Source: a virus
Virus record (IMG/VR): IMGVR_UViG_3300033182_000549
Span: 1-30,791 of that record
Reading direction: 5' to 3' (one strand)
Length of the DNA: 30,791 bases
Shown: positions 4,320 to 22,300 of the stretch, piece after piece
Layout of the letters: every line of letters starts with the position of its first letter
How positions within the stretch are numbered: the stretch's first letter is position 1
The notes under the pieces: model-generated
The model's input: only the letters and a program-made list of their open reading frames with translations
What the model was told of the DNA's origin: nothing
The model's database searches: none
Position numbers and translations under genes: made by a program

Positions 4320-4350
4320 TTGAATATCTCCAGTCGTGTTTACTTTATGA

Positions 4351-4725
4351 TCAGAATTCGTAGGTCAGAGTACCTTCATACTTCCATTCCATATCAGAAC
4401 CAGACTCATTCAGTTGAGTGAACTCAGCCTTGACCTTGGAAGAAATGTTGTCGGTCAGTTTGATCTTGGTGCCGATTTCCAGTTGTCCCATGGTTGTTGC
4501 ATCTTCACCATCTTTGGTTTCCCATGCAGGACCAACTTCGATATAAGGCTTCAGGTTGCCGTACTTGGTCTCGTATCCTACGCGGGTCTCGATATATGAC
4601 TTGTCGAAATCGCTTCCTTCACCTTTTGCACCAACTTTGGTGGTGAGGTAAGGACCAGCCATAGCAGGTGCCACAGAGGCAGCGCCCAGGACTGCCAGAG
4701 CAGAAAGTGCCAGTGCTTGTTTCAT
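4351..4725 (-). CDS. Small secreted beta-rich (porin-like) protein
   Basis: A 124-aa protein with a signal peptide (MKQALALSALAVLGAASVAP, cut near AMA-GPY). The mature part has alternating polar and apolar residues (YIETRVGYETKYGNLKPYIE, IKLTDNISSKVKAEFTQL) and ends in aromatic Phe (GTLTYEF), typical of outer-membrane beta strands. At about 100 mature residues it could form a small barrel or a fragment of one. It is the first gene of the pstS transcript and has the Pho-box-like region directly upstream. It has the same length, same GPY mature start and similar ending as 4941-5315, so the two are probably paralogues. Confidence 0.7.
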   Translation of the reverse strand: MKQALALSALAVLGAASVAPAMAGPYLTTKVGAKGEGSDFDKSYIETRVGYETKYGNLKPYIEVGPAWETKDGEDATTMGQLEIGTKIKLTDNISSKVKAEFTQLNESGSDMEWKYEGTLTYEF

Positions 4726-20300: not shown

Positions 20301-21338
20301 TCAAATAATCCCCGCTAGTTCAGGTGCGGTTGCCTCTTCACTTTGTTGGACTTGCTCATTGACCCACTCATAGGTCTTAGCAATACCCTCTTCAAGAGTC
20401 ATGGTGTAGTCCCAACCAAGTTTCTCACGAACGAGATCATTATTGGAGTTGCGACCACGGACACCAAGAGGACCATCAATGTGCTTCTTGACAATGGTTT
20501 TGCCAGCAGCCTTAGCAGCAAGATCTGCAAGTTGATTGATAGTAACCATCTCTTCAGATCCAATATTCACAGGACCAGAGAAGTCAGATTCCATCAAACG
20601 ACGAGTTGCCTCAACACATTCATCGACATAAAGGAATGAACGAGTTTGCTCACCATCACCCCAGATCTCAACCTCTCCACCATCTTCTGCCATCGCAACC
20701 TTACGACACATAGCAGCAGGAGATTTCTCCCTACCACCAGTCCAAGTGCCTTCAGGACCAAAGATATTATGAAAACGACCGATATGAACTTCGATGTTGT
20801 GATTGCGGTTGTATGCAAGGAAGAGACGTTCTGAGAAGAGTTTCTCCCATCCATATTCAGAGTCAGGACCTGCAGGATATGCATCCGTTTCCTTCAGACC
20901 TGGATTATTTACATCCATCTGAGCATACTCAGGATACATGCAGGCACTGCTGCTGTAGAAAATTTTAGTTTTGTTTACACCCTTGGTCTCATTCAACTCC
21001 CTTTGTGCTTCAAGGAGGTTGATGTTGATGGATGCAGAATTGCTCATGATCTCAGAGTCATTATCACCACTGAAAACAAATCCAGCACCACCCATATCAG
21101 CAGCATACTGATAGATCTCGTCAAAAGTGTCTCCCGAATATTCAATGACACGTTTGACCAAACCAGCATCGGTAAGATTGCCCTGAACAAACTCATCAGC
21201 AACCGTAGCAGAATACTCTGGGTACTTTTGATCTACACCACGAACCCAATATCCCTCACTACGCAGTCTCCTTACCATGTGACTACCAATAAAACCACCA
21301 GCACCCAACACTAGTGCTGTCTTCTTACGTTCAGTCAT
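20301..21338 (-). CDS. GDP-mannose 3,5-epimerase
   Basis: A 345-aa extended short-chain dehydrogenase. LVLGAGGFIGSHMVRRL (9-25) binds NAD. AADMGGAGFVFSG (79-91), SSSACMYPEY (129-138, catalytic Cys133), EYGWEK (Tyr162, Lys166), RFHNIFGPEGTWTGGREKSP and NIGSEEMVTINQLADL match the plant-type GDP-mannose 3,5-epimerase closely. It turns GDP-mannose into GDP-L-galactose and GDP-L-gulose. It is the first gene of the island, preceded by a promoter, a terminator and a structured leader. The length and motifs are complete. Confidence 0.93.
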   Translation of the reverse strand: MTERKKTALVLGAGGFIGSHMVRRLRSEGYWVRGVDQKYPEYSATVADEFVQGNLTDAGLVKRVIEYSGDTFDEIYQYAADMGGAGFVFSGDNDSEIMSNSASININLLEAQRELNETKGVNKTKIFYSSSACMYPEYAQMDVNNPGLKETDAYPAGPDSEYGWEKLFSERLFLAYNRNHNIEVHIGRFHNIFGPEGTWTGGREKSPAAMCRKVAMAEDGGEVEIWGDGEQTRSFLYVDECVEATRRLMESDFSGPVNIGSEEMVTINQLADLAAKAAGKTIVKKHIDGPLGVRGRNSNNDLVREKLGWDYTMTLEEGIAKTYEWVNEQVQQSEEATAPELAGII

Positions 21339-21365
21339 AAAATTTTGATAATTGTGTTAGTATAT

Positions 21366-21394
21366 ATGATAATAAAAAAGACGGTTGATGTCAA
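21366..21394 (-). promoter_or_regulatory. Sigma70 promoter of the sugar island
   Basis: TTGACA (21394-21389), 17 bp, TATCAT (21371-21366) on the minus strand. The -35 forms the centre of the terminator hairpin at 21374-21399. The -10 starts 33 nt before the epimerase ATG, copying the hli promoter layout. Confidence 0.75.
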
Positions 21395-21399
21395 CCGCC
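21374..21399 (-). terminator. Terminator/attenuator before the epimerase gene
   Basis: Minus strand GGCGGTTGA, short loop, TCAACCGTC, then six Ts: about 8 bp including one G-U. It would stop read-through from 21509-21742 or act as attenuator of the structured leader upstream. Confidence 0.78.
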
Positions 21400-21404
21400 T
21401 TCAA

Positions 21405-21508
21405 AGGTCTTTCATGCACGCCACTTGCTCTTTTACCTGAAGCAAGAAACAGGGCGGGAGTGTTACCTCCATCCGCACCACTTGCTCTTAGGTAAAGCAA
21501 GAAACCGT
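21405..21508 (-). ncRNA. Structured leader with repeated, complementary-loop hairpins
   Basis: Two hairpins have the same 6-bp stem CTTGCT/AGCAAG (arms 21481-21486/21496-21501 and 21424-21429/21441-21446). On the minus-strand RNA the first loop has UUACCU and the second AGGUAA, exact complements. A third AGGUAA sits between them at 21468-21463 inside GGAGGUAACACUCC. The arms' flanks repeat too (CCACTTGCTCTT and AGCAAGAAAC, twice each). No gene fits. The terminator and the epimerase gene follow. Location recalls the wcaG RNA motif reported in cyanophages upstream of exopolysaccharide genes, but I cannot confirm the match. Confidence 0.55.
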
Positions 21509-21742
21509 TCAAATGTGTTTGAACTTTCCAGGGAATGCTTCTTTCAGAGCAGCTGCAAGACCATCTGGCCATCCAGCACTTACAGGTGCGGGGGCATTTA
21601 ATTTTTCGGAGAGTTGATGAAGTTTGACTTCAATCTCTGCCAATCTGCCTTCAATAACCTTAAGTCTACCTTCTACTTCAACATCATACTTGGACATTGA
21701 TGCTCCAGTTGCAGATCTTGCTGCCTTTCCTTGAATTGCCAT
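21509..21742 (-). CDS. Hypothetical coiled-coil protein (77 aa)
   Basis: Begins MAIQGKAARSATGASMSKYD. Residues 22-48 (VEGRLKVIEGRLAEIEVKLH) form a regular coiled coil, followed by a Pro/Ala linker and a C-terminal GWPDGLAAALKEAFPGKF. No known domain. A late-type motif CTAAATA lies 26 nt upstream of the ATG, suggesting a late or structural role; this is inference. Confidence 0.65.
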   Translation of the reverse strand: MAIQGKAARSATGASMSKYDVEVEGRLKVIEGRLAEIEVKLHQLSEKLNAPAPVSAGWPDGLAAALKEAFPGKFKHI

Positions 21743-21767
21743 TTGTACAATTAATAACTTCTCTGTT

Positions 21768-21774
21768 TATTTAG
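21768..21774 (-). promoter_or_regulatory. Possible cyanophage late promoter motif
   Basis: CTAAATA on the minus strand, preceded by an A run and placed 26 nt before the 21742 start codon. It matches the late-promoter core described for T4-like cyanophages. A 7-bp motif in AT-rich DNA is weak evidence alone. Confidence 0.4.
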
Positions 21775-21778
21775 TTTT

Positions 21779-21820
21779 TTAGAAGGGTCTAGTGACTCCA
21801 CCAGTACTGTTATAGTCCAT
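21779..21820 (-). CDS. Possible micro-ORF (13 aa)
   Basis: ATG at 21820 opens MDYNSTGGVTRPF and stops at 21779. The same frame is open upstream to a TAA near 21865, reading LALVGIPPKSR before the Met, which looks protein-like, but no normal start codon is there. It fills the gap between the 77-aa genes. The region also has GTGACT/AGTCAC repeats that can pair, so it may instead be RNA. Confidence 0.25.
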   Translation of the reverse strand: MDYNSTGGVTRPF

Positions 21821-21854
21821 CCGTGACTTAGGGGGTATCCCGACCAGGGCTAGT

Positions 21855-22088
21855 TTAACGACTTACCGAGTCACGAACATAACAAGGCACACCTTCAGGA
21901 TCTAACCATTTAGTGTACTCAAAGTCATCAATCGCAGTCATAAGTTGCATCTGATTATCAAGGAGATACATGTCACTGTATCTCTTGGTATAATGATGTG
22001 CTTTTTGAATGCGGTAATCTGGCATACCATTTTCTAGTACACCAGATTCAACATAACGATAGGGAAAACGTTCTAGGAGAACCTTCAC
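21855..22088 (-). CDS. Hypothetical protein (77 aa)
   Basis: A 77-aa basic/aromatic protein beginning MKVLLERFPYRYVESGVLEN and ending in VRDSVSR. It has many Tyr and Asp, no membrane span and no recognised domain. Its start overlaps the stop of the next upstream gene by 4 nt (ATGA), supporting reality and co-expression. Confidence 0.65.
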   Translation of the reverse strand: MKVLLERFPYRYVESGVLENGMPDYRIQKAHHYTKRYSDMYLLDNQMQLMTAIDDFEYTKWLDPEGVPCYVRDSVSR

Positions 22089-22300
22089 GCTACCTCCACA
22101 GACTCAAGATCGACAGCGATTTGCTCCATCAAAATATCATAATCATCAAGAGGATCTCCAGAGAAGACGACTCCATTGTTCTCATAATAACGACGGACCT
22201 TTTTGAGAAGTTTCGGATTCTTCACATCCAGGAAAAAGTCACCGTTTACAGCACCACGAAGAGTGCTGATATCTTTCTTGAACTTGCTAGTCAGTGTCAT
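22085..22300 (-). CDS. Hypothetical protein (71 aa)
   Basis: From the ATG at 22300 (MTLTSKFKKDISTLRGAVNG). A longer frame from 22351 is rejected because it would include the promoter at 22323-22351 and start next to the tRNA end. The chosen start is 28 nt after the beginning of the -10, as in other units here. The protein has FFLDVKNPKLLKKVRRYYEN and an acidic tail. Function unknown. Confidence 0.6.
   Translation of the reverse strand: MTLTSKFKKDISTLRGAVNGDFFLDVKNPKLLKKVRRYYENNGVVFSGDPLDDYDILMEQIAVDLESVEVA

Follow-up and report, generated by a model that had tools for sequence, protein, structure and literature searches.

The wcaG locus and its neighbors

On the minus strand of the window (the whole stretch analyzed here, 30,791 nucleotides of viral DNA), a structured RNA element lies between a small phrog_481 gene and the first gene of a sugar island. 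In the direction of transcription, the locus comprises the features below, in which H and Y denote two types of RNA module, X the connectors and R1 our model of the Y module, which was built from 58 sequences with both Y modules of the window among them.

21855-22088, minus strand: small protein of 77 aa (phrog_481); its gene overlaps the first pseudoknot module with its final codons and stop
21836-21876, minus strand: first Y module (GACUCGGUAAGUC...GCCCUGG plus the start of the next connector); R1 44.3 bits, E 3e-13; holds the phrog_481 stop codon
21831-21842, minus strand: connector hairpin X1 (CGGGAUACCCCC), from direct reading of the sequence
21793-21831, minus strand: second Y module (AGUCACGGAUGGACUAUAACAGUACUGG plus the start of the next connector); R1 40.5 bits, E 5.5e-12
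21785-21800, minus strand: connector X2 (UGGAGUCACUAGACCC), also read directly
21768-21774, minus strand: late-promoter-like CTAAATA before the embedded 77-aa ORF, a consensus-like match only
21509-21742, minus strand: embedded small ORF of 77 aa (phrog_35121), between the Y and H modules
21410-21509, minus strand: Rfam wcaG match (H1-X3-H2-E), 93.8 bits (gathering score, 42)
21481-21506, minus strand: H module 1; S1 GGU/ACC, 21506-21504 with 21493-21491; S2 CUUGCUU/GAGCAAG, 21501-21495 with 21487-21481
21454-21480, minus strand: connector X3 (UGGUGCGGAUGG...CUCCCGC), joining H module 1 and H module 2
21424-21453, minus strand: H module 2; S1 CCUG/CAGG, 21453-21450 with 21439-21436; L1 UUU; S2 CUUGCUU/GAGCAAG, 21446-21440 with 21430-21424
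21374-21402, minus strand: predicted intrinsic terminator, 11-bp stem plus six Us; hairpin 21402-21377, -15.1 kcal/mol
21366-21394, minus strand: predicted sigma-70-like promoter of the sugar genes; TTGACA (21394-21389) in the terminator stem-loop, 17 nt, TATCAT (21371-21366)
20301-21338, minus strand: nucleotide-sugar epimerase, first gene of the sugar island (PF01370, E 2.1e-41; phrog_540)

Our analysis confirmed the suggestion of an earlier, sequence-only reading that the element is the wcaG RNA, as the Rfam covariance model (RF01761) matches with an E value of 7.5e-17 over all 98 model positions (1-98). The features picked out by that reading are indeed present on the minus-strand RNA: two hairpins with CUUGCUU/GAGCAAG stems (21501-21481 and 21446-21424), UUACCU in the first loop, AGGUAA in the second and a third AGGUAA within GGAGGUAACACUCC, followed by the terminator hairpin with its six Us (21379-21374) and then by the epimerase gene. 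The folding of the element region beats 200 dinucleotide shuffles (z -3.7). A coding reading of the stretch, through a 71-aa frame at 21357-21572, was rejected because element lengths in relatives differ by non-multiples of three.

The wcaG motif itself is already known. Its 2010 description places it in cyanophages, close to exopolysaccharide and high-light genes, and rates it as probably cis-regulatory and probably a riboswitch (Weinberg 2010, PMC2864571). In the literature we found no function for wcaG RNA beyond this proposal, which later cyanophage papers repeat untried.

Relatives of the element and the H-type pseudoknots

Three pattern scans of IMG/VR yielded at least about 280 loci. 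Since the first two scans fixed the H1 or H2 stem, covariation was analyzed only in sequences anchored on the X3 connector. This alignment, A1, holds 115 relatives among the matches listed, with neither hairpin selected by the search; 17 of 132 sequences were left out by eye, namely, five unrelated coding matches and 12 without a canonical H1 or H2. The motif is present in IMG/VR and Kyanoviridae records, that is, in T4-like cyanophages and marine viral sequence. When the pattern of the first scan was run against the genomes of 84,980 bacterial and archaeal species, it matched four stretches, three of them without the motif beyond the pattern itself; the fourth, on a MAG contig (L124), has a plain wcaG. 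With this contig as the only plausible cellular match, wcaG is essentially a cyanophage feature. The contig is binned as Euryarchaeota archaeon TMED129 and is probably a misbinned cyanophage fragment. No match was found in the Prochlorococcus phages P-SSM2, P-SSM4 and P-TIM68 or in Synechococcus phage S-SSM7, indicating that the RNA is dispensable.

In A1, 97.0% of the stem cells are paired, compared to 81.5% after shuffling (115 relatives, among the matches listed), and the stems covary at nearly every pair, with 415 double-change cells versus 112 in shuffled alignments (0/500 shuffles) and 19 to 47 with slid partners. Comparison of the relatives' sequences furthermore shows each H hairpin to be a predicted H-type pseudoknot, the loop pairing with the bases directly before its own stem. 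For pseudoknot 2, the loop pairs with the 4 nt just 5' of its stem in 109 of the 115 relatives among the matches listed (shuffled 34.8, maximum 50), through five main pair sets (CUGG/CCAG, CCUG/CAGG, CCAG/CUGG, CAGG/CCUG and CUAG/CUAG), and by blind mutual information its two middle pairs rank first and second in the alignment. The same pairing is weaker for pseudoknot 1, where it occurs in 72 of these 115 listed relatives (shuffled 30.8, maximum 46). As G-U cells exceed A-C cells by 271 to 50, selection acts on the RNA transcribed from the strand of the element. The resulting module layout is S1 (3 to 5 nt), UUU, S2 (a 7-bp stem), S1' in the loop, an A-rich loop, S2' and UGG. For arrays with three H modules, the pseudoknot of the first module failed this comparison among the matches listed (8/35, with a shuffled maximum of 8), and the pseudoknot S1 is unsupported in the class with coding sequence extending across the first H module.

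These data offer a different account of the loops from that of the sequence-only reading, which had UUACCU kiss AGGUAA and the identical stems swap arms, producing two alternative states. The covariation check on relatives divided the proposal, in that the stems covary while the loop-loop complementarity of UUACCU and AGGUAA stays at the shuffled level (2.72 versus 2.72, sd 0.05; 115 relatives among the matches listed). Swap-capable pairs fared no better, numbering 56 where 54.6 were expected in the same listed relatives. Loop complementarity of at least 5 nt is confined to 3 of the 115 (the window, L044 and L072), and identical stems occur in 24 of the 115, again among the matches listed; both features are thus real in the window and in some relatives but are not conserved. 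While the window sequence allows kissing and arm swap, and folding the stretch on its own even gives a minimum-free-energy structure with the swapped pairing between the two hairpins, the chance level of both features in the relatives leaves the two-state model so improbable that we give it almost no weight. UUACCU and AGGUAA are mostly the 3' strands of the two pseudoknots, ACC pairing with GGU in module 1 and CAGG with CCUG in module 2.

The array upstream of wcaG

As judged from the sequences of its relatives, wcaG makes up the 3' half of an extended pseudoknot array, usually of three or four modules, of which the Rfam model represents only the last two H modules. Many loci have more modules of the same style upstream of wcaG. 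The H modules are spaced 48 to 57 nt apart, and the same search detected 783 of them in the loci versus 77 in shuffled loci (among the matches listed). The Y module, a second type, consists of a GUC-type hairpin with a GG loop, an A-rich stretch and CUGG. It has a covarying stem, with 98.6% of cells paired, a descriptive count for S1 because the Y set was chosen by requiring a 4-bp stem, as well as a covarying lone pair (CG:62/UA:24) at columns 39-60 that was not subject to selection. An Rfam scan of 21360-22150 returned nothing at the two Y modules of the window (21793-21876).

In ten large records, wcaG was found at one locus each, with the Y matches (E < 1e-8) within about 400 nt; there is one wcaG locus per genome, Y matches adjoin wcaG in nearly every genome having them, and the named isolates concur. 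The commonest architectures among the matches listed are Y~HHH (42 loci), YYHH (42), YHH (24), YY~HH (19) and YHHH (14), where the tilde marks an embedded small ORF. The window has the YY~HH layout, with the gap after the second module that characterizes the 19 listed loci of this type. For comparison with the CTAAATA that precedes its embedded ORF, the late promoter of S-PM2 is NATAAATA (PMC2984593). In L001 (near 4345-4428, minus strand) and similar Y~HHH loci, the embedded ORF encodes a membrane protein and begins directly after connector X1, whose hairpin (GGGAGCAAACCCC) includes a likely Shine-Dalgarno sequence. In the Y~HHH class, translation of the embedded ORF could be coupled to the array. 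Two hypothetical proteins annotated on the array, gp208 of Syn9 (NC_008296, 163128-163286) and SRSM4_042 of S-RSM4 (FM207411, 29622-29735), are probably spurious ORFs.

In the literature searched, we did not find the extended array, its position or the relation of promoter and terminator; the 2010 drawing may already show the pseudoknots. Neither the RF01761 model nor the published text searched (PMC2864571) includes the 5' modules (Y, first H and X2), a start on a stop codon or the position at a tRNA cluster. The window is a direct member of the motif, with the same hairpins in the same kind of phage.

Genomic position and probable function of the array

The array sits at the end of an nrdB/tRNA cluster, behind phrog_481. 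Among the matches listed, the gene directly before the array is a phrog_481 homolog in 148 of 194 loci, to which five isolates can be added; an upstream stop codon falls about -10 to +30 nt from the first module in 153 of 192 loci, compared to 60 of 585 random points; and a tRNA gene is located at most 2 kb upstream in 146 of 169 loci versus 14 of 155 downstream. The isolates S-RSM4, S-CREM1, Bellamy, Syn9 and S-PM2 share this upstream side: all have phrog_481, in some followed by phrog_604 or another small gene, and most have nrdB or tRNAs farther upstream. Their downstream genes vary. The array is followed by an epimerase gene in Bellamy, hli in Syn9, tRNA-Gly in S-PM2, tRNA-Met in S-CREM1, and tRNA-Gly and then a tail-fiber-like gene in S-RSM4. 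Conserved synteny, as read from these gene orders, lies mainly upstream. In the metagenomic set, an epimerase gene within 1.5 kb is the commonest downstream gene (93 of 171 loci among the matches listed).

Two side observations concern the same neighborhood. A manA RNA (RF01745) lies between tRNA genes of the same cluster in L137 (3782-3991) and OP535465 (10215-10429), a position that suits an RNA of the tRNA cluster better than the leader of a mannose gene. At L140:11626-11893 (minus strand), a group I intron and an abiF-like RNA are found about 3.4 kb from the array.

Sugar or hli genes often come after wcaG, separated from it by a terminator and in many cases also by a promoter-like sequence. 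A hairpin with a T-run follows the array in 180 of 207 loci, mostly 35 to 50 nt past the last module, and in about a tenth of the loci, which have no terminator, the array goes directly into an ORF or tRNA (both among the matches listed). A TTGNNN-17-TANNNT promoter-like sequence straddles the terminator, its -35 box lying within the hairpin or ahead of it, in 98 of 186 listed loci, compared to 0 in shuffles and 19 of 245 other terminators of the same loci. The search for antiterminator pairing gave nothing above chance, the longest complement of the element to the terminator 5' arm measuring 6.97 versus 6.98 shuffled (n=199, among the matches listed). The transcription-attenuating switch envisaged by the sequence-only reading is not supported, the complementarity of element and terminator being no better than in shuffles and the downstream gene having its own promoter-like sequence across the terminator. 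Overall, that interpretation was partly supported: it was right about a conserved RNA and about wcaG, and its kissing loops, arm swap and switch are unsupported.

The discoverers made a related proposal: wcaG would belong to the leader of the exopolysaccharide genes, as a riboswitch or attenuator whose aptamer controls terminator read-through. The 2010 paper rates both cis regulation and a switch as probable (PMC2864571). Downstream genes are far from random, as the frequency of the epimerase gene demonstrates, and so read-through regulation of the sugar island keeps a share of the probability; a terminator usually follows the element. H-type pseudoknots, moreover, are known aptamer folds, as in preQ1-I and SAM-II. 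The missing conserved antiterminator, the next gene's frequent promoter-like sequence, isolates in which tRNAs, a tail-fiber-like gene or hli come next while the upstream side stays constant, and the start of the array on an upstream stop codon nevertheless argue against it, and we consider a leader riboswitch unlikely.

Taken from the sequence comparisons, the array is probably a structured 3' UTR or 3'-end RNA of the nrdB/tRNA-cluster transcript and not a ligand switch for the sugar genes. The comparison of relatives shows, within the limits of sequence data, a covarying module structure that starts at a stop codon, is usually followed by a terminator and occurs as a single copy per genome. 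In our model, a chain of usually three or four pseudoknots would form the untranslated end of the transcript, with transcription coming from upstream. The chain would start where a small gene, either phrog_481 or the one after it, has its stop codon. Short hairpins would join its modules, and a small ORF can sit in the middle. Its usual end would be an intrinsic terminator, with the predicted -35 box of the next gene often lying in the same hairpin, and the sugar genes would start from their own predicted promoter. The folded chain would serve as a structured 3' end, most likely as a nuclease shield for the upstream RNA or as a binding scaffold.

Two further explanations have to be weighed against this 3'-end model. 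A stable noncoding RNA, processed from the tRNA-cluster transcript and acting in trans, would be the positional counterpart of T4 rnaC and rnaD, two late RNAs with no assigned function that close the T4 tRNA cluster on its 3' side (PMC9697503). The single copy, the usual three or four modules and the location at the 3' end of the cluster fit such an RNA, as does the placement of rnaC/rnaD after tRNA-Arg at the cluster end. The likeness, however, is one of position: rnaC and rnaD have neither H-type pseudoknots nor a match to the Y model and were rejected as homologs. A late-promoter-like sequence within 40 nt upstream of the first module was seen in only 2 of 195 loci among the matches listed, so that a late promoter of the array's own directly upstream was likewise rejected, and the overlap with a stop codon fits a 3' UTR better; a trans-acting RNA is, in our view, improbable. 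A recombination site at the DNA level, used for the exchange of cargo genes and with RNA structure only secondary, would resemble the PeSLs of T4-type phages, promoter-terminator cassettes that are reported to be shuffling sites (Comeau 2014, cited in PMC4503421). A PeSL is reported to be an intrinsic terminator stem-loop overlapping an early promoter in gene-shuffling regions, and the window has such an overlap at the sequence level only (TTGACA-17-TATCAT), like the 98 listed relatives noted above. The composite, the variable cargo downstream and the small ORFs embedded in the array suit a shuffling site. The composite found here differs from a PeSL in coming after a pseudoknot chain and in having a promoter predicted from sequence, and the deep covariation together with the excess of G-U over A-C needs selection on the RNA of this strand, which makes a mere recombination site very unlikely.

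More tentatively than the 3'-end model itself, we put forward a broader possibility, that wcaG may be a fragment of a larger, unnamed phage RNA: a modular, single-copy chain of tandem pseudoknots that sets in at a stop codon where the cyanophage tRNA cluster ends, accepts a small ORF between modules and makes a protected or scaffolding transcript 3' end, as a phage counterpart of the tandem-pseudoknot 3' UTRs found in plant RNA viruses. In tobacco mosaic virus, the upstream pseudoknot domain of the 3' UTR has several H-type pseudoknots in a row, located after the stop codon and before the RNA 3' end. This is an analogy only, for that virus is a plant RNA virus with unrelated sequence, and a tRNA-like end follows its pseudoknots. 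Since 2010, wcaG has been listed among the candidate riboswitches of sugar genes. Should it prove to be the last part of a chain closing the tRNA-cluster transcript, the search for ligands would have started from the wrong gene, and an RNA that is widespread in cyanophages and strongly constrained in its fold would be left without a known role; the isolates with the array (Syn9, S-PM2, S-RSM4, S-CREM1 and Bellamy) make the question testable.

The Y~HHH layout also resembles that of tmRNA, which has four pseudoknots with an ORF after the first, but tmRNA has a tRNA-like domain and the array does not. A tmRNA identity was rejected, as ARAGORN finds only tRNAs in the window and the Rfam scans, including that of 21360-22150, report no tmRNA family. 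In two other cyanophage contigs, ARAGORN did find circularly permuted tmRNA genes, L033:663-964 (plus strand) and L207:4685-4983 (minus strand), several kilobases upstream of the array and on the same strand. Their tags, ANKIVAFSRSKVATLV and ANNIVAFSRSKTTALV, end in TLV/ALV and not in the usual AA degron, and these may possibly be phage tmRNAs that tag proteins without marking them for proteolysis.
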